Source: a virus. Taken from it: DNA of 56,124 nucleotides. The stretch is from positions 1 to 56,124 of the IMG/VR virus record IMGVR_UViG_3300030116_004829; one strand, given 5' to 3'. A model generated the notes under the pieces. It did no database searches. It was not told the DNA's origin and worked only from the letters and a program-made list of their open reading frames with translations. The translations under genes and the position numbers were made by a program. The stretch's first letter is position 1. Each line of letters begins with the position of its first letter. Below are positions 7,582-56,124 of the stretch, piece by piece.

Positions 7582-8123
7582 TATTTGATCCTTGATTGCG
7601 ATATAACTTCTATAGATGATGGATCATAAACTCTTATTCCACTCTCGTTAAGATTATGATGTCCTTTGAATCCTAACTTTTTAAGGTCATTTTCGATACT
7701 TTCCAAAAGTTCAAAATCTGATTCCATCTCTAAAGGATGTCCTTCTGGCAAATTCATATTTACTAAATCATTCGCTTCTTCCAAATTATCAAGATCATCA
7801 AGCAATCCATTCCTTTTTGCTAGATTAAAATGATTCTCATTTAATATATTAAAAACTTCTTCGTCTCTTATTTTAAGTTTCATTTTGATTAAATTAGAAT
7901 GCTCATCCTTTCCTTGTCCAAGAGTTGAATATTTTATTGCTGTTTCTTTATCATGAGTTACATCTGTAAATGGTTTTATTTCTTTTTCAATGTCTCTAGA
8001 TCCTCTGTAAAAAGTAACATCAGGAGTACCAATCATCACGTGATCTCTGATAAAATCTTCCAACACACCGATTTTATTACCCAACGCATCGACTGCACTT
8101 TTTATTAATTTAGCTTTCGCCAT
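7581..8123 (-). CDS. Second polyvalent-protein-like ADP-ribosyltransferase
   Basis: I choose ATG 8123, which overlaps the previous stop as TAATG and gives 180 residues. Motifs in order: TFYRGS (37-42); THDKETAIKYS (56-66), which fits F/T-x-D-x-x-x-A-x-x-Y; LKKLGFKGHHN (about 150-160); and a terminal IRVYDPSSIEVIS that fits the v-x-F-D-P-x-x-I strand of ART domains in phage polyvalent proteins. Length is close to a bare ART domain. It probably modifies host proteins or RNA early after injection. The acidic middle (EEANDLVNMNLPEGHPLEMESD) may be an insert. The specific reaction is inferred. Confidence 0.6.
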   Translation of the reverse strand: MAKAKLIKSAVDALGNKIGVLEDFIRDHVMIGTPDVTFYRGSRDIEKEIKPFTDVTHDKETAIKYSTLGQGKDEHSNLIKMKLKIRDEEVFNILNENHFNLAKRNGLLDDLDNLEEANDLVNMNLPEGHPLEMESDFELLESIENDLKKLGFKGHHNLNESGIRVYDPSSIEVISQSRIK

Positions 8124-16137: not shown

Positions 16138-16170
16138 AAAAAAAATAAACCCTCATTTTTATCTGAGGGT
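16138..16170 (-). terminator. Rho-independent terminator of the leftward early operon
   Basis: On the minus strand ACCCTCA pairs perfectly with TGAGGGT (stem 16149-16155 with 16164-16170, 8-nt loop), followed by TTTATTTTTTTT. This is a textbook intrinsic terminator. It lies 18 nt after the stop of the 57-residue gene and ahead of the late operon, isolating early leftward transcription from terminase and head genes. Confidence 0.85.
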
Positions 16171-16187
16171 CTAAGTTATTTAGCAAG

Positions 16188-16361
16188 TCATGGAGAAAAC
16201 TTACTACCAGTGAGCATTTGAAAGGGAGGAACACAGCTATGTTGCTCATTCCATAGCTCTGGATTCCAAGAATCACAACCTAATATTAAATTAATTATTA
16301 CAAAAGTAAACATTAAACTTAAAAAAGATACAAAAATAAATTTAAATAAAAACTCAATCAT
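16188..16361 (-). CDS. 57-residue membrane-anchored or lipoprotein-like peptide
   Basis: The ATG at 16361 overlaps the previous stop as ATGA. The first 28 residues are a strong hydrophobic signal-type segment (MIEFLFKFIFVSFLSLMFTF then VIINLILGC). Cys29 is preceded by I-L-G, close to a lipobox though Leu at -2 is unusual. The remaining 28 residues contain a second Cys and would face the periplasm. It is the last gene before the terminator. An early membrane protein of this kind may take part in superinfection exclusion, which is a guess. Confidence 0.6.
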   Translation of the reverse strand: MIEFLFKFIFVSFLSLMFTFVIINLILGCDSWNPELWNEQHSCVPPFQMLTGSKFSP

Positions 16362-16552
16362 TTTTCTTTATCAATCAATGTATTTAATTTTGAATACCAT
16401 CTTTGCCAATCACATATGTCAGTGTACATATTATCTTTCAGACCATTAAGATATTCTAATTTAGTTTTGTCTCCAAGAATAAATTTTAATTTTTTAGGAT
16501 CGCTTTCTTGAAAACCTCTTATCAATTTTTTATAAATATCTATATCATGCAT
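16358..16552 (-). CDS. Small early hypothetical protein
   Basis: This protein has 64 residues: MHDIDIYKKLIRGFQESD, then a Lys/Leu-rich helical section and a Trp-rich end (CDWQRWYSKLNTLID). Its start overlaps the upstream gene by eight bases and its stop overlaps the next start. Early leftward operon genes of this size often encode host-takeover factors. No motif recognised. Confidence 0.55.
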   Translation of the reverse strand: MHDIDIYKKLIRGFQESDPKKLKFILGDKTKLEYLNGLKDNMYTDICDWQRWYSKLNTLIDKEK

Positions 16553-16742
16553 TTGTAAACCTTTCCAAATCTTTTAGAGCCAAAGTGTATTGACCTCTTT
16601 TGTATTTGTTTCCTGTTATTTTTGTAGCTGCATTAAGAATGTCCTTACCAGACATTCTAGAGTTTTTCATCCCAAGAGACAACAATTTAAGATGTCCCTT
16701 GAGAAAAACTGCTTGAACTTTTGGATCTGATGGATTAATCAT
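16545..16742 (-). CDS. Small early hypothetical protein, possibly DNA-binding
   Basis: This 65-residue basic protein has two helices around residues 12-24 and 33-45 (MSGKDILNAATKITGNKYKR), a spacing that could be a helix-turn-helix but is not convincing. It overlaps both neighbours by a few bases. Role unknown. Confidence 0.5.
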   Translation of the reverse strand: MINPSDPKVQAVFLKGHLKLLSLGMKNSRMSGKDILNAATKITGNKYKRGQYTLALKDLERFTNA

Positions 16743-17026
16743 TTGTTGTAACCAGATAAAGTTATTTTTAAAGTTGTAGAAGATTTAGTGTGAGCTCTCA
16801 TAAACTGAGGAGACAATTTATTTCTAACAGCTTTCATATCTAATCTTTCAGTTGTCACTTCTGAAACAACTGCTTTATGCTCTTCACCTTGATAAACGCC
16901 AACACCTAAATGTTTAAGAGTTGTAACAATACATTTCTCAGCATTGTTAATTTTTTCTTTTTCAGCTCGCAATGCAGCTAGTTCATTGACTAAATCAAAA
17001 ACGATATTATTGCTCATGTTATTCAT
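16739..17026 (-). CDS. Early hypothetical protein, first gene after the ribozyme
   Basis: ATG 17026 has AAAGGA eight bases upstream and gives 95 residues. The open frame extends to 17092 through the ribozyme, so that extension is not coding. The protein has an N-terminal helical hairpin (LVNELAALRAEKEKINNAEK) and a C-terminal block, GVGVYQGEEHKAVVSEV followed by LDMKAVRNKLSPQF. I recall such blocks in small proteins near phage replication genes, with no function. After hammerhead cleavage its mRNA would begin 30 nt before this ATG. Confidence 0.6.
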   Translation of the reverse strand: MNNMSNNIVFDLVNELAALRAEKEKINNAEKCIVTTLKHLGVGVYQGEEHKAVVSEVTTERLDMKAVRNKLSPQFMRAHTKSSTTLKITLSGYNK

Positions 17027-17051
17027 AATTAATTCCTTTCTAAATTTGCTA

Positions 17052-17104
17052 TCGCAGACCTTTCGGTTTCGGGTGGGGAGCAACCCCACCACTCATCAGT
17101 ACGA
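17052..17104 (-). ncRNA. Hammerhead ribozyme (stem I open)
   Basis: Read 5'-3' on the minus strand. Stem I is UCGUA paired with UGCGA (17100-17104 with 17052-17056, one G-U). The core CUGAUGA occupies 17093-17099. Stem II is eight G-C/A-U pairs with one bulged U and a UUGCU loop. GAA follows, then stem III ACC/GGU closed by a GAAA tetraloop, then C17. Every invariant hammerhead position is present. Cleavage is expected between 17057 and 17056. The element fills the gap between the stop of the 116-aa gene (17106) and the leader of the 95-aa gene. With only stem I open it is a type I arrangement. Confidence 0.9.
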
Positions 17105-17105
17105 A

Positions 17106-17456
17106 TTAACAACCATAAGCTTCGCAATAAGCTACTGATCCATAACTTGGCTCATCTTCTTCCCAAAGATACTCGTTAAGCTTTCCACCATTATCAGTAT
17201 GTAATTTCATTTTATCAGCTAAAACACTCATTGTTTGCTCAAGCAAATCTCTAGCTTTAGTTGTATCTCCTTCAGCTTTTCTAATAAAATCTGAAAGTAG
17301 AAAAACTTTATTATGATTCCATCTATAACCTTTAGAATCTTCTGCTTGTACACAATAACCTTCGTGATGTATATCAGAACCACATTCGTCTCTTCCTGCA
17401 AAAAACAACCAAGAGTGTTGTATAAAAAATAATCCTTTTGCTGCTGTTATATTCAT
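17106..17456 (-). CDS. Early hypothetical protein upstream of the ribozyme
   Basis: This 116-residue protein has seven scattered Cys/His residues (DECGSDIHHEGYC, then YCEAYGC at the end) that could bind metal. The middle is helical (KARDLLEQTMSVLADKMKLH). Its stop codon lies one base before stem I of the hammerhead, so terminating ribosomes would cover the ribozyme. An AAAGGAAATATAA leader precedes the start. No family recognised. Confidence 0.6.
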   Translation of the reverse strand: MNITAAKGLFFIQHSWLFFAGRDECGSDIHHEGYCVQAEDSKGYRWNHNKVFLLSDFIRKAEGDTTKARDLLEQTMSVLADKMKLHTDNGGKLNEYLWEEDEPSYGSVAYCEAYGC

Positions 17457-17585
17457 TTATATTTCCTTTCTCAAAAATGATTTGCCTTGCTGTCTTACTT
17501 TTTTATTGCCATTCTTTTTTAATGACTTCTCCCACTTTCTAGAAGTAGAGTGGATTCTTCCTCGACCTTTTATTCCTTTTGACAT
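17457..17585 (-). CDS. 42-residue basic peptide, first gene of the leftward early operon
   Basis: ATG 17585 has AAAGGAAGTGAAA before it. The product begins MSKGIKGRGRIHSTSRKWEK and is Lys/Arg-rich throughout. Its stop is directly followed by the ATG of the next gene. It is the gene nearest promoter A, so it should be among the first phage products made. Basic early peptides often bind host RNA polymerase or nucleic acid, but nothing here proves that. Confidence 0.6.
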   Translation of the reverse strand: MSKGIKGRGRIHSTSRKWEKSLKKNGNKKVRQQGKSFLRKEI

Positions 17586-17613
17586 TTTCACTTCCTTTCT
17601 CAACCTTATATAT

Positions 17614-17642
17614 ACTCTATCTTATTTTGTTTCAAAAGTAAA
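17614..17642 (-). promoter_or_regulatory. Early promoter A (leftward)
   Basis: On the minus strand TTTACT is followed by 17 nt and TAGAGT, then ATATATAAGG and the GAGAAAGGA leader of the 42-residue gene. The same arrangement occurs at four plus-strand sites (17956, 23916, 32179, 33234). Bases AAATAAGATAGAGT before and across the -10 are shared with sites B and C. It fits sigma70-type recognition by host polymerase. Confidence 0.85.
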
Positions 17643-17674
17643 GGATTATTTTTGATTTTATTAAAAAAAGATTC

Positions 17675-20430: not shown

Positions 20431-21960
20431 ATGGCAGTAAAAAAATTCATGGAGCTTTTTCAAGGATATGAACTTGCACATGGTCAATACAGGGTAAATA
20501 AAAAAGAAGCCGATGGAAAATTATCGGGAAGAGCAGTTACAGTCAGCGAGCCTGTTACAGAAAAAAATTATAAAGAACATCTTAATGGTGGTGAATATAT
20601 TTTAGGAATCATTCCTTTATTAATAGATAACAGTTGCCATTTTGGACTTATTGATGTTGACATTAGAGGTGAAGCAAAGTTAAATGAAACACTGGAAAGT
20701 CTTGAAAAGAAAATTAGAGAACTGCCATTGGTTCTTTGTCGTTCTAAAAGTGGTGGTGCTCATTTGTACATGTTTTGCAATCCTAGCATTCCTGCAATTG
20801 ATATGGTCACTAAATTAAATGAGTTTGCTGCACAACTAGGTTATGGTGGTTCAGAAATATTTCCTAAACAGATATCTAGAGCCAATGATAGAGATCGTGG
20901 AAACTGGATTAATTTATGTTATTGGAATGGCAATGAGACTGAAAGGTACGCAATTCACAAAGGTAAAAAATTAAAACTAGAAGAATTTATTGAATTAGCA
21001 GAAAAGAAAAGAACCAATTATGAGGAACTAGAAAAATTAAATTTAAATTTGGTTGATAATTTTAGCGATGGACCACCTTGTTTACAACATATTATGACAA
21101 TGGGTTTTCCAGAAGGTGGCAGGAATAATTCTTTATTTAATGTCGGTGTATATTTTAGAAAAAAGAATCCAGACGACTGGCAAGAAGATTTAATGAAATT
21201 TAATTATGAACATGTCAGTGAACCTTTACCATCTTCAGAAGTCAATGGTTTGGTCAAAGCAGTGAGTCGCAAAGATTATGCTTATACATGCAAGCAAACA
21301 CCTCTCTGTAATTATTGTGAAAAATCTAAATGCATGAAAAGAAGCTATGGCATCGGTGGTATTGGTGGTGGTTTAGCTTTAGAAGTGGATGCCATTACAA
21401 AGTACGAAACTGAAAATAGACAATCAGTGCGTTGGTATATAGAAATGCAAGGTGAGAGAATAGAAGTGACAACACCTCAATTATTAGATCAGAAACAACT
21501 ACAGAAAATTTGCGTAGAAAAACTTAACAAATGTCCCAGCACTATGCCAGCACCTAAATGGGAGAAAAGAATAAATGAGTTGTTGCAAAGTGTAGAGATA
21601 GTTATAGATCCAGATGATGCTTCTCCACAAGGTCAATTTGAAAAAGTTCTAGACGGATTTTTGACAGGTAAAGTTCAAGCTAGACAAAGAGATGAAATTA
21701 TGAATGGCAAACCATGGCATGATTCAGATGAGGGCAAAGTTTATTTTAGGTCAGAAGATTTATTTATTTATCTAGAAGCAAGAAGATTTCGTTTTCCTAG
21801 CCAACATCAAGTTTGGTCTTGGCTTAGATCTTTAGGTGGTGATAGAAAAACCTTTCGCATTAAAGGAAAACCAGTTAAAGTATGGTCAGTACCAGAACCA
21901 GAATTTTTTGACGAAGAAGATTCTCTTGATATACCTAGTGAAGTAATGGAAGATTTTTAA
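20431..21960 (+). CDS. Archaeo-eukaryotic-type primase with PriCT-like region
   Basis: This protein has 509 residues. The AEP core is readable: FGLIDVDIRG (D75, D77 as the metal pair), VLCRSKSGGAHLYMF (S..H111), and GYGGSEIFPKQIS. A GGRNNSLFNVGVYFRKKNPDDW segment (229-250) matches the C-terminal helical domain of phage primase-helicases. A four-Cys cluster follows (C287, C293, C296, C301) and could bind zinc or Fe-S. The last 180 residues show no helicase motifs. It should prime DNA synthesis for the DnaE polymerase. AGAAAGGA precedes the ATG. The AEP call is by motif. Confidence 0.7.
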   Translation: MAVKKFMELFQGYELAHGQYRVNKKEADGKLSGRAVTVSEPVTEKNYKEHLNGGEYILGIIPLLIDNSCHFGLIDVDIRGEAKLNETLESLEKKIRELPLVLCRSKSGGAHLYMFCNPSIPAIDMVTKLNEFAAQLGYGGSEIFPKQISRANDRDRGNWINLCYWNGNETERYAIHKGKKLKLEEFIELAEKKRTNYEELEKLNLNLVDNFSDGPPCLQHIMTMGFPEGGRNNSLFNVGVYFRKKNPDDWQEDLMKFNYEHVSEPLPSSEVNGLVKAVSRKDYAYTCKQTPLCNYCEKSKCMKRSYGIGGIGGGLALEVDAITKYETENRQSVRWYIEMQGERIEVTTPQLLDQKQLQKICVEKLNKCPSTMPAPKWEKRINELLQSVEIVIDPDDASPQGQFEKVLDGFLTGKVQARQRDEIMNGKPWHDSDEGKVYFRSEDLFIYLEARRFRFPSQHQVWSWLRSLGGDRKTFRIKGKPVKVWSVPEPEFFDEEDSLDIPSEVMEDF

Positions 21961-28821: not shown

Positions 28822-29344
28822 TCTAGAAACAACAGGATTGCCTAAAGCTGAAGGCTCAGACTTAGATTTACAACCTAGAATAATTGAGTTCGGTGCAATA
28901 AGATTTACCGATGGTAATTTCGAAGAATATGATAGGTTAGAATTTATGTGTAATCCTGGACACAACCTAGATCCTAAAATTAGTAAAATAACAGGCATTA
29001 GTGACGAAGATTTAAAAAAAGAAAAACCTTTTATTTATTATTATAAAGATTTATGTAAATTCTTTCTTGGCGAAACATCAATGGCTGCACACAATTTACC
29101 TTTTGATAGAAAGATTTTAAGATTCGAATTAGAAAGAATAGATAAACTTACAAAATTTCCTTGGCCAGTGGATCATATATGCACAGTTGAAGTTGGTCAA
29201 GGTGTTTGGGGTAAAATGCGTAAATTAAGTGAAATATATAAAGAGATCACTGGAAAAGAACATAAAGGTGCTCACAGATCTTTAGTTGATGTAGAAGCAA
29301 CAATAGAAATATTAAAGTGGTATAAAAAAGAAGGACACATTTGA
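28808..29344 (+). CDS. DnaQ-like 3'-5' proofreading exonuclease
   Basis: This 178-residue protein has the DEDDh exonuclease motifs: Exo I FDLETTG (4-10), Exo II AAHNLPFD (93-100) and Exo III GAHRSLVDVEAT (H156, D161). It corresponds to the epsilon subunit of DNA polymerase III or the exonuclease of T4-like replisomes. The stop overlaps the dnaE start (TGATG), so the two are made together and most likely act together. It lacks a C-terminal clamp-binding tail. Confidence 0.88.
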   Translation: MIVFDLETTGLPKAEGSDLDLQPRIIEFGAIRFTDGNFEEYDRLEFMCNPGHNLDPKISKITGISDEDLKKEKPFIYYYKDLCKFFLGETSMAAHNLPFDRKILRFELERIDKLTKFPWPVDHICTVEVGQGVWGKMRKLSEIYKEITGKEHKGAHRSLVDVEATIEILKWYKKEGHI

Positions 29345-32151
29345 TGTTGCATTTAAGAGCCAGAACTGAATACTCTTTTAGAAAAGCATATGGTCCAATA
29401 AATAATTTAGTTGGCTTGGCAGGAGAGGCAATGGGCATTGCTGATGCTGGAACTTGGGGTCATGTGGCTTTTAACAATGCTTGTAAAAAAGCAAATGTAA
29501 AGCCAATATTCGGAGTTGAGATAGGTGTTGTTGAAGATGCAAAAGAAAGGTCAAAGCAACCAATAAATTACATGGCTTTTATAGCAAAAAATAATTCAGG
29601 CTTGGCAGAGATTTATCAACTTGTAACTAAAAGCACTTCTAAAGAAAATTTTTATTATATACCAAGAATAAGCTATTATGATCTTTTCGAAGTATCTGAA
29701 AACGTAATTATTTTAACAGGAACTAATCCTAATGTTGGGTTAATACCTTTAACTAAAAAGAAGCATATTTATTTCGAGATAAATCCAATGACAAGTAAAA
29801 AGAGCTTTCTTTGGGCAAAAGATAAGCGTTTTCAATTTGTGGCAACTTCAGATAATTACTATCCAAAAGTTACAGATAAAAAAGCTTATGAAGTTTTAGT
29901 TGGAATGAATAGGACAGAAAGAACTAAACCAATGCACCTATTAAATGAATATGAGCTAGTTGATTGTGTTCCTTGGATACCAGATGAAGCAATGCAAATG
30001 ACTTACAAAATTGCTGACGAATGTAATGTTGATTTACCTATTGCTAAAATGATATCTTTTCAACCGAGCAAGACATTAGAAGAAATGTGCATAGATGCAG
30101 CAGAATCAAGAGGAATAGATCTAAAAAATAAAGTTTACAAGGATCGTCTGAGAAGAGAAATAGACATGATTGCAAGTAAAAATTTCGAAGATTATTTTTA
30201 CGTCATTGCTGATATGATTAATTATGCTAAACAACATATGTTAGTTGGTCCAGCAAGAGGATCTAGTGCTGGTTCTTTAGTTTGCTATTTAATAGGAATT
30301 ACAGATATAGATCCTATAAAGTTTGATTTATTATTCGAAAGATTTATAGATATCACCAGAGCTGATCTTCCTGATATAGATATAGATTTTCAAGATGACA
30401 GAAGAGAGATGGTTTTCGAATATTTAAGACAAAAGTATGGTGCAGAAAAAGTTGCCCATTTAGGAACAGTAAGTAGATACAAAGCTAAAAGCACAATCAC
30501 TGAAGTTGCTAAAGAACTAGGAATACCAGCTTGGGAAGTCAATGATTTAAAAGGTGCTATAATAGAAAGAAGTGGTGGTGATGCTCGTGCTGCCATGTGT
30601 ATTATGGATACATTTAATGATTTAGATATTGGCAAAGAAGTTTTAAAAAAATATCCACAAATAAAAATAGCAGAAAGAATGGAAAATCATGCTAGACATT
30701 CTGGAGTTCATGCAGCAGGAATTATAATAACAGAAAAGCCAGTGAGTGAATATTGTTCTGTTAGTGCTCAAACTGGTGCAGCACAAATAGATAAATACGA
30801 TGCTGAAAGTTTAAATTTATTAAAAATAGATGCTTTAGGATTAAGAACACTTTCTGTATTAAATGATGTTTTAGAGCAAGTCAATTGGACAAAAGAAAAA
30901 ATTATTAATTTCCCTTTAGAAGATCAAAAAGCTTTTGATGTCTTAAATAAAGAAAGGCATGCAGGCATTTTTCAATTTGAAGGCTATGCATTACAATCTT
31001 TAACACGTCAAATGAAAATAAGTAATTTTGAGGATATTGCTTCCATAACGGCATTGGCTCGTCCTGGACCATTAACATCTGGTGGTACAACAAAATATAT
31101 AAGACGGAAGATAGGTGAAGAGCCTATTACATATTTGCACCCAATGGCAGAAAACATTACTAAAGTAACATTTGGTGTTGTTGTTTATCAAGAACAAGTT
31201 ATGACTATTGCTCGTGACATTGGTAAATTAAGTTGGGAAGATGTTTCTCAGTTGCGTAAAGCAATGAGTAAATCTTTAGGTGAGGAATTTTTTGATCGTT
31301 ATTGGAAGAAGTTTAAAGTTGGTGCTGAAGAGCAAGGAATACCAGAAGACGAATCAATAAAAATATGGAAGAATATTAATACAATGGGATCATGGGCATT
31401 TAATAGATCGCATGCTATTGCTTATGGCTTGGTCAGTTATTGGTGTTGTGTTTTGAAAAGTCGTTTCCCATTAGAGTTTGCTGCAGCATGCCTTAGGAAT
31501 GTAAAAGACGAAGATCAAGGTGTAAAACTATTAAGAGAAGTTGTTAAAGAAGGATTAGGATATAAGCCATATGATAAATATAAATCAGAATTAAATTGGT
31601 CTGTACAAGATGGTGAGTTGATCGGAGGACTTATAGGTATCAAAGGTGTTGGTCCAAAAATGGCAGAAGATATTATAGAAAGAAGAAAATTTGCACAACC
31701 TTTAACACCTCGTCAGGAAAAACTTTTAGATCAGGGAGAGACTCCATTCGATGATATTTTCGAATGTGAAAGAAGATTTGGTCATATTAAAAAAGATCCA
31801 TCAGCTCATAATATTAAAACACCTATAACAGACATTCATAATTTAGAAGCTGATAATCCTGGAGAGTTTGTTGTTTTCGGCAAGCTTGTAGAGAAAAACC
31901 TTAGAGACTTAAATGAAGCTGTCAATTTAGCTAAAAGAGGTGGCAGGAGAGCTGAAACTAATAATCTATGGTTAAACATGAAATTTGAGGATGATACTGG
32001 TCCAATCCTCGCAGGAATAGATAGATGGAAATATCCAAAGCTAGGAAAACCAATAGTTGAAGATGGTAAAATTGGTGATTGGTATTTGTTAAAAGGTCAA
32101 ATTAGAAAGGGATTTAGGAAGCTTAACATAGATAAATGGAGAAAACTTTAA
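29344..32151 (+). CDS. dnaE: Family C DNA polymerase (DnaE-like alpha subunit)
   Basis: This 935-residue protein (from ATG 29344) is the likely replicative polymerase. The N-terminal PHP domain is degenerate: LHLRARTEYSF replaces the H-x-H metal site, so it cannot proofread. Palm motifs are intact: GPARGSSAGSL (303-312), LPDIDIDFQDD with two catalytic Asp (about 343-352), and ARHSGVHAAGIII. Fingers follow with ARPGPLTSGG and AFNRSHAIAYG. A helix-hairpin-helix (LIGIKGVGPKMAEDII) and an OB-fold-like end complete it. It is about 220 residues shorter than E. coli DnaE, lacking the tau-binding C-terminus. Confidence 0.92.
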   Translation: MLHLRARTEYSFRKAYGPINNLVGLAGEAMGIADAGTWGHVAFNNACKKANVKPIFGVEIGVVEDAKERSKQPINYMAFIAKNNSGLAEIYQLVTKSTSKENFYYIPRISYYDLFEVSENVIILTGTNPNVGLIPLTKKKHIYFEINPMTSKKSFLWAKDKRFQFVATSDNYYPKVTDKKAYEVLVGMNRTERTKPMHLLNEYELVDCVPWIPDEAMQMTYKIADECNVDLPIAKMISFQPSKTLEEMCIDAAESRGIDLKNKVYKDRLRREIDMIASKNFEDYFYVIADMINYAKQHMLVGPARGSSAGSLVCYLIGITDIDPIKFDLLFERFIDITRADLPDIDIDFQDDRREMVFEYLRQKYGAEKVAHLGTVSRYKAKSTITEVAKELGIPAWEVNDLKGAIIERSGGDARAAMCIMDTFNDLDIGKEVLKKYPQIKIAERMENHARHSGVHAAGIIITEKPVSEYCSVSAQTGAAQIDKYDAESLNLLKIDALGLRTLSVLNDVLEQVNWTKEKIINFPLEDQKAFDVLNKERHAGIFQFEGYALQSLTRQMKISNFEDIASITALARPGPLTSGGTTKYIRRKIGEEPITYLHPMAENITKVTFGVVVYQEQVMTIARDIGKLSWEDVSQLRKAMSKSLGEEFFDRYWKKFKVGAEEQGIPEDESIKIWKNINTMGSWAFNRSHAIAYGLVSYWCCVLKSRFPLEFAAACLRNVKDEDQGVKLLREVVKEGLGYKPYDKYKSELNWSVQDGELIGGLIGIKGVGPKMAEDIIERRKFAQPLTPRQEKLLDQGETPFDDIFECERRFGHIKKDPSAHNIKTPITDIHNLEADNPGEFVVFGKLVEKNLRDLNEAVNLAKRGGRRAETNNLWLNMKFEDDTGPILAGIDRWKYPKLGKPIVEDGKIGDWYLLKGQIRKGFRKLNIDKWRKL

Positions 32152-32178
32152 ATTTTTTTAAAAAAATGAAATTAACGC

Positions 32179-32207
32179 TTTACTTCTCTGGCCAAATAAG
32201 ATAGAGT
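32179..32207 (+). promoter_or_regulatory. Early promoter B
   Basis: TTTACT, 17 nt, TAGAGT, then GTATATATAAGG and TTGAGAAAGGA. It is nearly identical to promoter A from AAATAAGA to the leader. It lies 27 nt after the dnaE stop. It should drive the cysteine-peptidase-like and SleB genes. Confidence 0.85.
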
Positions 32208-32239
32208 GTATATATAAGGTTGAGAAAGGAAATATAAAA

Positions 32240-33202: not shown

Positions 33203-33233
33203 ATTCTTTCTTCACTTAATTCAAAAAAAAGAC

Positions 33234-33262
33234 TTTACTTCTCTGTTGAAATAAGATAGAGT
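33234..33262 (+). promoter_or_regulatory. Early promoter C
   Basis: TTTACT, 17 nt, TAGAGT, then ATATATATAA and TTAGAAAGGA. The spacer TCTCTG...AAATAAGA is almost the same as in promoter B, so the two were probably copied or are under the same constraint. Confidence 0.85.
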
Positions 33263-33292
33263 ATATATATAAATTTTAGAAAGGAAAAAATT

Positions 33293-50494: not shown

Positions 50495-51477
50495 TATGCT
50501 AATCCTCCATGAGATGACGAAACACCAGAACTTCCTGAAAGATACCCTCTAGCATTTACTAAGTCACCAAAATCTGTTGCATTCCCTAGTGAAGTTATAA
50601 CTACTTGGTCTATTGTGTTTACATAAGTAGTACCTGATGCAATCCCACCTGCCCAAACACCTATTGTCTTTCCAGAAGCAGATGTAACTGTATATCTCGC
50701 TTGTGTTAAATCGCCAAAATCTGTGGCATTAGAAGCACTAGCCATTGTAATATAATCAATTACATTTGAATAAGATCCTGCTGCATAACCACCACCAAAA
50801 ATACCTCTTGTAGCATTAGAAACACCACCAAAACCATAATCAGATCTTGTTAAGTCTCCAAAGTCACTGGCATTACCTTCTGATGCTATTGTAACAAAAT
50901 CAATTACATTTACAGTGGCTGCTGTTCCACCTGCCCATATTCCTCTTGTTGGAGAAGAACAAGATGCTCTATAACTTTTCGTAACTGTCAAGTCTCCGAA
51001 ATCTGAGGAATTTGATAAAATGTTAAGAGTAACAAAATCAATTATATTAACTGTGCTTGCTGCATTTTCTCCTGAACCATAAAGACCTCTTGTATGATTA
51101 GATGCACAAGCTGCATTTTGCCTAACTGTCGTTAAATCTCCAAAATCTTGACCATTCCCTGCTGAAGCAAAAGTTACATATTCCAATGTATTAACAGCAT
51201 AATTTGGAGCACCTGTTTGTCCTAAACTATAAACTGCCCTTGTTGTATTACCTGCTGCACCAACAGCATAAGCACCTGTACTCATGTCACCAAAATCACT
51301 AGCATTGCCTGTGCTTGCTAAGTTCCTTTGATCAATATAATTCTGTCCACCAGAACCTGCTGATCCACCAAAGAACAAAGCAATTTGTTGAAATATTTCT
51401 GGTGGATTAGACCAAAGACTTCCTTGTTGAGCAACACCTTGTTGTCTTAAATCCCATACTCCAGAATAATTAGGCAT
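50494..51477 (-). CDS. Tail fibre with six FGDL repeats
   Basis: ATG 51477 (TAATG coupling) gives 327 residues; the frame extends upstream without leader. After MPNYSGVWDLRQQGVAQQ come six units of about 47 residues, each with NVIDYITMASASNATDFGDL and a TRGIFGGG-type strand. They look like blades of a beta-propeller or a kelch-like fold. The end, SSSHGGLA, matches that of the next fibre. It is a paralogue of 51477-52667 without its Fn3 domain. Likely a host-recognition part. Confidence 0.65.
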   Translation of the reverse strand: MPNYSGVWDLRQQGVAQQGSLWSNPPEIFQQIALFFGGSAGSGGQNYIDQRNLASTGNASDFGDMSTGAYAVGAAGNTTRAVYSLGQTGAPNYAVNTLEYVTFASAGNGQDFGDLTTVRQNAACASNHTRGLYGSGENAASTVNIIDFVTLNILSNSSDFGDLTVTKSYRASCSSPTRGIWAGGTAATVNVIDFVTIASEGNASDFGDLTRSDYGFGGVSNATRGIFGGGYAAGSYSNVIDYITMASASNATDFGDLTQARYTVTSASGKTIGVWAGGIASGTTYVNTIDQVVITSLGNATDFGDLVNARGYLSGSSGVSSSHGGLA

Positions 51478-52667
51478 TATTGCAATCCTCCATGAGAAGT
51501 TGAAAAACAAGAAAGTCCATTTGTTTCAGCGTTTGTTAAGTCACCAAAATCACTAGCATTGCCTAATGAAGCTATGGTAATATAATCAATTCCAGTGCTA
51601 TTGCCTACATATTCACCTGCAATTAAAGCTCTTGTGTTTGAACAGCCTGAAGCATGATAACGTACAGAGTTTGTTAAGTCACCAAAATCAGTTCCATTAG
51701 ATGCTGCTGCAATAGTAATATATTCTATAATATTTAGTTGCCCACTTCCTGCATCACCACCTGAAATTATACCTCTTGTTGAACTCGAGCAACTAGCTGT
51801 ACCATTCCTACCTACAGTTAAGTCACCAAAATCGGTGGAATTGCCTAAACTCATAATTGTAACATAATCTATTACATTTATAGAAGTTTGCCCACCACTA
51901 AATACAGCTCTTGTCGGAGAAGCACAACCTGATACTATAACTCTCGCTGTAAGTAAATTACCAAAGTCAGAAGCATTGCCTTCACTTGCAATAGTAACAT
52001 ATTCTATAGTATCTGATGCAGCATATGATGAATTAAAACCTTGAGTAAAAACACCTCTTGTACCATTACCACCACCTGCTCCAGATTGAGCACTAGTTAC
52101 ACTTAGTTCTCCAAAATTTGTACCTGCTCCTGCACTTGCAAGATTTAATTTTTCAATTTTTCTAGATGATGCTGCAGAAGTATTAGCATCATAACCACAC
52201 TGCACTCCTCTAGTTGCAGATGAAGCTGTTGGAGGATAATATGCTGCATATTGCATTGCATATCCCCAATCAGTAGTATTACCTAAAGAAGAAATGTTTG
52301 AATAAAAAACATTAACAGTTGTCCTGCCAAGCCAAAATACTCTAGGGATTGGAGGAATTGCTGTAGTAGCAGAGCTATAAGGACTTGAACCAAAAGCATT
52401 GTTCGCAAGACCTGTAACAGAATAGCTTGTGCCATTTGTTAATCCAGTTATGGTTATAGGACTTGTCGCACTTGTTGTTCCTGTAGATACACCACTTGCT
52501 ATTATTGTCGCTGTATAAGAGCTAATAGCACCACCACCCACATCTGATGGATTAGTAAAAGCAACTTGAAGTTGAGAATCTCCTGTTGTAACACTTATTT
52601 CAGGTGCATCTGGTGCTCTTAGTTGGTCAAAGCCACCTATTAAACCACCTTTGTTACGAGTACCCAT
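51477..52667 (-). CDS. Tail fibre with Fn3 domain and six FGDL repeats
   Basis: This protein has 396 residues. Residues 15-105 are a fibronectin type III domain (APDAPEISVTTGDSQLQVAF, GLTNGTSYSVTGLANNAFGS). Then six units of about 45-50 residues with FGDL- or FGNL-type cores and N-x-I-D-Y-V-T-I strands, ending in TSHGGLQ. The repeats match those of the neighbouring paralogue. Fn3 domains are common in phage surface proteins and may bind sugars. Likely host recognition. Confidence 0.7.
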   Translation of the reverse strand: MGTRNKGGLIGGFDQLRAPDAPEISVTTGDSQLQVAFTNPSDVGGGAISSYTATIIASGVSTGTTSATSPITITGLTNGTSYSVTGLANNAFGSSPYSSATTAIPPIPRVFWLGRTTVNVFYSNISSLGNTTDWGYAMQYAAYYPPTASSATRGVQCGYDANTSAASSRKIEKLNLASAGAGTNFGELSVTSAQSGAGGGNGTRGVFTQGFNSSYAASDTIEYVTIASEGNASDFGNLLTARVIVSGCASPTRAVFSGGQTSINVIDYVTIMSLGNSTDFGDLTVGRNGTASCSSSTRGIISGGDAGSGQLNIIEYITIAAASNGTDFGDLTNSVRYHASGCSNTRALIAGEYVGNSTGIDYITIASLGNASDFGDLTNAETNGLSCFSTSHGGLQ

Positions 52668-55880: not shown

Positions 55881-56124
55881 TAAATTAAATTCAACGCTGT
55901 CGGTTGAACCCTCAAATTAACACCATCATTATCTGCTGAAGAAGCAAAACTAAAAGATTTTTCATAAACGTCATTTAAAAGTTGATATCTATCAGAAGCA
56001 TATTTTAAGGATAATTTCGCAGCCAATCCTGCACAAATACAATCTGTCCAACGATAAGGCACATCTGCATCTTGATTAGATAAAGTCACATCATCGAGTT
56101 GATTTACTGCCCAATAAACCATAC
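55880..56124 (-). CDS. Head-tail connector, C-terminal part of the gene at 1-589
   Basis: This is the end of the P22 gp4-like connector. Over the join the frame is continuous, with no shift: 589 + 77 = 666 nt, 221 residues plus stop. This part adds DVTLSNQDADVPYRWTDCIC, AGLAAKLSLKYASDRYQLLN, then DVYEKSFSFASSADNDGVNL. The last 168 bases duplicate the left end. An internal ATG at 56122 is not the real start. Confidence 0.7.
   Translation of the reverse strand, partial: MVYWAVNQLDDVTLSNQDADVPYRWTDCICAGLAAKLSLKYASDRYQLLNDVYEKSFSFASSADNDGVNLRVQPTALNLI
55957..56124. repeat. Terminal overlap repeat, right copy
   Basis: Direct copy of 1-168, with G at 56009 in place of A at 53. See the left copy for interpretation. 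Confidence 0.95.

Follow-up and report, generated by a model that had tools for sequence, protein, structure and literature searches.

The operon and its phage

The window, by which is meant the whole stretch of 56,124 nucleotides analysed (IMG/VR record IMGVR_UViG_3300030116_004829), carries a leftward operon on the minus strand. Its genes were identified by translation of open reading frames. In leftward order, the operon comprises a first gene of 42 aa (17457-17585), a 116-aa gene (17106-17456), a predicted hammerhead ribozyme, genes of 95 aa (16739-17026), 65 aa (16545-16742; 81-85% conserved in relatives) and 64 aa (16358-16552), and a last gene of 57 aa (16188-16361). A terminator-like hairpin followed by U8 (16146-16173) then precedes the terminase genes (terS). 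The intergenic stretch between the 116-aa and 95-aa genes (17105-17027) is nearly all hammerhead and then ribosome-binding site, with a Shine-Dalgarno-like AGAAAGGA at 17034-17041, 7 nt before the ATG at 17026.

The head of the operon is marked by a promoter-like motif, CTTTACTT...ATAAGATAGAGTATATATAAGG, at 17604-17643 (-). Further copies were located at 32178-32217 (+) and 33233-33272 (+), both in the replication region, and nowhere else in the window; shuffled sequences gave an expectation of 0.01. The repeated motif CTTTACTT...ATAAGATAGAGTNTATATA precedes three operons, and the three sites probably constitute a phage-regulated promoter set. Because the motif is shared with the replication region and a terminator stands before terS, assignment as an early operon is plausible. 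A late structural operon had also been considered and was dropped on the same grounds.

The terminase large subunit was 77% identical to that of CRP-901 and CRP-902, which are Roseobacter CHAB-I-5 phages (PMC10149686). The source is a marine, Roseobacter-type phage. A direct terminal repeat of 168 nt (1-168 and 55957-56124, one mismatch at position 53) makes it probable that the phage genome is complete in this contig. The replication module (29341-32151 and 20431-21960) encodes a homologue of DNA polymerase III alpha and a protein resembling archaeo-eukaryotic primases; such a module beside a CRP-901-like terminase indicates a mosaic genome. Within the leftward structural-module coding region, a 64-nt repeat occurs nine times at 50550-52007, mostly about 140 nt apart. 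In a related phage (L009), RF03012 (Mu-gpT-DE RNA) was found at 7941-7991, after the counterpart of the gene that occupies 1575-2486 in the window; RF03012 had no match in the window itself.

Sequence and structure of the element

The whole conserved element, as delimited by a covariance model, spans 17043-17108 (-) and comprises a stop codon, the hammerhead and a pseudoknot strand. The UAA stop of the 116-aa gene (17108-17106), absent from the preliminary description, is separated from stem I by U17105 alone. Stem I is formed by UCGUA (17100-17104) and UGCGA (17052-17056), giving 5 bp including one G-U, and both strands show compensatory changes in relatives. The core sequence CUGAUGA (C3-A9, 17093-17099) leads into stem II (17071-17092), which has 8 bp, a bulged U17091 and the loop UUGCU. 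This stem consists of a G-C pair, the bulged U and then seven pairs, GGUGGGG/CCCCACC; two-sided changes were recorded at 7 of its 8 pairs. The core GAA (G12 A13 A14, 17068-17070) is followed by stem III, ACC-GAAA-GGU (17058-17067), a 3-bp stem that covaries and lengthens in relatives. The hammerhead mechanism places the predicted cleavage site 3' of C17, between 17057 and 17056.

All invariant core positions (C3 U4 G5 A6 N7 G8 A9, G12 A13 A14, A15.1-U16.1 and H17) are present between 17099 and 17057. As in type I hammerheads, stem I is the open-ended one, and loops close the other two stems. Judged by sequence comparison, the element is a real and complete type I hammerhead, and RNA covering 17108-17043 very probably cuts itself.

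The preliminary description overlooked a pseudoknot. Loop II, UUGCU (17079-17083), is the reverse complement of AGCAA (17046-17050), and the two strands pair and covary in relatives. AGCAA begins one base 3' of stem I and carries the element out to 17046; it lies on the downstream-mRNA side of the cut.

Covariance searches and folding

A loose hammerhead descriptor (core, with at least 5 pairs in stem I, 4 in stem II and 3 in stem III) matched a single site in the window; the expectation from 300 first-order simulations was 0.003 per window. A covariance model (R2) was built from 22 relatives with window-type stem II sequences excluded. It scored the element at 76.8 bits (E 9.5e-18), the sole match in 56 kb. 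The full minus-strand hammerhead with every invariant core base, as claimed in the preliminary description, was confirmed base for base.

The Rfam models, proposed there for a covariance search, gave no match in the window at gathering thresholds. When Rfam was run on 96 bases, two families matched below threshold in the right register: RF03152 (RAGATH-1-hammerhead) with 18.3 bits and RF02275 (Hammerhead_HH9) with 15.8 bits, against gathering scores of 56.3 and 52. Both share the core of the element, and a stem III of 3 bp is likewise present in HH9. A c-di-AMP riboswitch and a snoRNA in the low-score list were far below threshold and were dismissed. In 36 scanned loci, no Rfam hammerhead family (RF00163, RF00008, RF02275, RF03152 and others) reached threshold. 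Rfam thresholds are uninformative for the hammerhead group to which the element belongs.

A blastn search of the element against isolated phages and plasmids gave no meaningful match. In sequenced prokaryote genomes 20 sites fitted the pattern; none of them scored above 24.6 bits with the model, and they were taken as chance.

Nearest-neighbour folding of the window RNA gave -18.9 kcal/mol for the hammerhead fold and a minimum of -22.0 kcal/mol, so that an alternative without stem I was preferred by 3.1 kcal/mol in a calculation that leaves out the pseudoknot and the core contacts. Calculated in the same way, the stem I pair probability was about 0.03, and lower still with more flank. This minimum-energy fold and the lack of a threshold match in Rfam would both suit a hammerhead that has decayed or lost its activity, or an ordinary hairpin of the terminator type that merely looks like one. 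The intact core, the compensatory changes and the similar placement of 186 relatives argue against such an origin, as does the absence of a U tract after the hairpin, and it is scarcely credible.

Relatives and covariation

Relatives of the element were collected by pattern scans of IMG/VR contigs, and relatives of the upstream gene by a protein scan. At least 186 non-redundant related ribozymes were found in uncultured-phage contigs. The collection patterns demanded core bases, and some also demanded AGCAA, so part of the conservation of core and tail reflects the selection of matches. Copies that were found by the model, and not by a core-requiring pattern, nevertheless keep the core, with variation at position 7 alone. 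This position is U, C, A or G in relatives and is free in the published consensus.

Across 36 aligned relatives, 97.1% of pair cells were paired. Two-sided changes numbered 85 in the alignment; shuffled controls gave 19.5, and slid controls never more than 9. The length of stem III varies among relatives between 3 and 9 pairs. The preliminary description had called so minimal a stem III unusual; the 3-bp form is common, occurring in 75 of the 186 listed relatives.

Loop II and tail change together in relatives (UUGCU/AGCAA, UGGUU/AACCA, UAGUU/AACUA, UGAUU/AAUCA). A pseudoknot of at least 4 bp was computed for 179 of the 186 listed relatives; entry into this set depended in part on the sequence of the tail or on a pseudoknot of 5 bp, and the shuffle test is therefore a better guide than that raw count. 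In the shuffle test, 79 of 86 distinct loop/tail combinations pair, against a shuffled mean of 47 and a maximum of 56. According to PMC3088659, about 40% of known hammerheads are predicted to have such a pseudoknot, and where tested it was needed for fast cleavage.

The covariance model found no match in CRP-901, the cultured relative of the structural module; CRP-902 was compared by a core motif scan alone. Relatives of the 116-aa gene with 77-97% identity have no ribozyme after the gene. The lack of the element in CRP-901 and in close relatives of the upstream gene indicates that it is dispensable.

Placement at gene junctions

The preliminary description placed the hammerhead between two co-oriented protein genes, which was supported, and regarded an intergenic ribozyme as unusual, which was not. 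In every one of the 174 copies whose flanks were long enough, a start codon follows the cut at a distance of 12-56 nt, and PMC3088659 described phage hammerheads beside small genes in 2011. A Shine-Dalgarno-like motif was present in 155 of the 174. The upstream ORF ends between -43 and +23 of the core in 167, and the remaining 7 had no detected upstream stop. Under a strict joint stop-and-start criterion, 137 of 174 copies qualified, compared with 2.3% of random positions on the same contigs and strands.

The upstream stop mostly abuts or overlaps the ribozyme. Its commonest start is -9 from CUGAUGA (56/174), and in 26/174 its first base lies at +1, where the stop is the core's own UGA. These two preferred positions would suit a ribozyme under translational control, in which a ribosome halted at that stop sits over stem I and the core and cleavage occurs only when the upstream gene is untranslated; through the element, what becomes of the downstream message would then depend on whether the upstream gene is translated. 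Compact phage genomes, however, put stops near the next element anyway, and about 15 of the 174 stops lie at least 20 nt upstream, besides the 7 copies with none detected. Translational control is considered rather unlikely.

Whole phage records contain up to 5 copies. In multi-copy loci all copies share one strand (28/28), with spacings of the order of gene lengths (252-3357 nt). Tandem sets of 2-5 copies in several phage contigs could release pieces between successive hammerheads that become RNA circles or mobile RNAs, as in retrozymes, and the 2',3'-cyclic phosphate and 5'-OH ends of hammerhead products suit RtcB-type ligation. Against this, the window holds one copy and hence yields no circle, lacking the tandem arrangement of retrozyme or viroid-like elements, and in the bacterial cases of PMC3088659, circles and spliced products were sought and not seen. 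Circle formation is very improbable.

The proteins encoded downstream of the 186 listed ribozymes fall into 114 clusters with a median length of 95 aa. With 114 unrelated downstream clusters, the element marks gene junctions and not one gene. In twelve related loci a ribozyme occupies the same slot, 0.6-1.5 kb ahead of terS, and the genes that follow it differ. Homologues of the 95-aa protein also lie behind a ribozyme (L021, L034, L036, L054 and L057; 44-52% in the well-aligned ones). In relatives this gene is located after the DNA polymerase, again behind a ribozyme. A related-locus search with the 95-aa protein confirmed none; these relatives surfaced through the ribozyme.

The variety of downstream clusters would also be expected if the hammerhead were mainly a shared junction for gene-cassette exchange by recombination, with cleavage secondary. 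The 95-aa gene, which lies elsewhere in relatives, and the stem II sequence of the window element, which is that of ribozymes in the same operon slot, both fit such exchange. The stems and the pseudoknot, however, vary freely while pairing is kept, which points to selection on RNA structure and not on DNA identity, and exchange as the main role is improbable.

An ArdC-like anti-restriction protein is encoded directly behind the ribozyme in three loci (L051 at 2745, L052 at 3268 and L074 at 4877); L051 was tested and the others are homologues. In published cases, ardA sits behind hammerheads. Taken with the ArdC-like genes, these cases suggest that anti-restriction genes may be favoured.

Proposed function and known systems

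The preferred reading, with a probability of roughly 0.8, is that the element is a type I hammerhead locked by its loop II pseudoknot and working as a gene-junction cutter of polycistronic phage mRNA. Cleavage in the cell and its benefit are what we infer from structure, compensatory conservation and placement, which were established by comparing sequences. By established hammerhead chemistry, a cut after C17 would produce one end with a 2',3'-cyclic phosphate and another with a 5'-OH.

Once the polymerase had passed AGCAA (17046), the RNA would fold and be cut co-transcriptionally at the C17057/U17056 junction. The 42-aa and 116-aa genes would then lie on an upstream message whose 3' end consists of the stable hairpins of stems II and III and bears a 2',3'-cyclic phosphate. 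The 95-, 65-, 64- and 57-aa genes would lie on a downstream message that has a 5'-hydroxyl at its start, followed by a leader of 30 nt with its own ribosome-binding site; the predicted cut and the leader before the ATG at 17026 agree with the positions given in the preliminary description. The benefit might be that each mRNA half has a dosage, stability or translation of its own.

In T7 early mRNA, intercistronic RNase III sites are cut between genes, leaving hairpin 3' ends. The gene-junction cutter proposed here would resemble these sites, since phage mRNA would again be cut between genes to give hairpin 3' ends. In T7 the cut is made by a host protein enzyme and leaves 5'-phosphate ends, whereas a hammerhead is a self-cutting RNA and leaves 5'-OH ends.

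The element shares its core, open stem I and stem I-II pseudoknot with bacterial and phage type I hammerheads (Perreault et al. 2011, PMC3088659; review PMC6155905). In PMC3088659, clustered hammerheads beside small prophage genes were active in vitro and in E. coli; the position beside small phage genes and the occurrence of several copies in a row are common to both sets. The present set differs from those described there in being a large group from uncultured, mainly aquatic phages, in its fixed architecture and fixed stop-ribozyme-start order, and in scoring below threshold in Rfam. According to the same paper, the HHphage of haloviruses HF1/HF2 lies in a phage operon directly ahead of a start codon, 13 nt away, with a mapped 5' end no more than 3 nt from the cut site. 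The HF1/HF2 core is atypical, with inserted bases and a high-salt setting, whereas the window core is canonical. The present set forms a sizeable new group within a known kind, and some members may already be in the supplementary alignments of PMC3088659.

The role of hammerheads in phages has been called open (PMC6155905; PMC10085705). At least 186 copies with one architecture and near-fixed placement before unrelated genes argue for a general mRNA-processing role and not a gene-specific one. Regular placement makes the purpose of phage hammerheads testable, and phages that have the element and their relatives that lack it, together with the cultured CRP-901, provide the means of testing an mRNA-processing role. 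A more far-reaching reading, possible but doubtful, would have a large aquatic-phage group use this operon-punctuating family as a standard device for maturing its mRNA. Such a device would be stop-sited and ribosome-gated, its 5'-OH messages would escape 5'-phosphate-dependent decay, and its junctions would swap stop-ribozyme-gene cassettes.

A separate phage hammerhead group, characterized by CTGATGAAGCGAAAGCAGAAACCGAAAGGTC and variants, was encountered in loci L017, L025, L028, L040, L029, L022, L027, L035, L039, L010, L007 and L014. Hammerheads of the CTGATGAAGCGAAAGCAGAAACCGAAAGGTC type are outside the family of the window element and lie within a longer conserved structure, in which the flanks could extend stem I.
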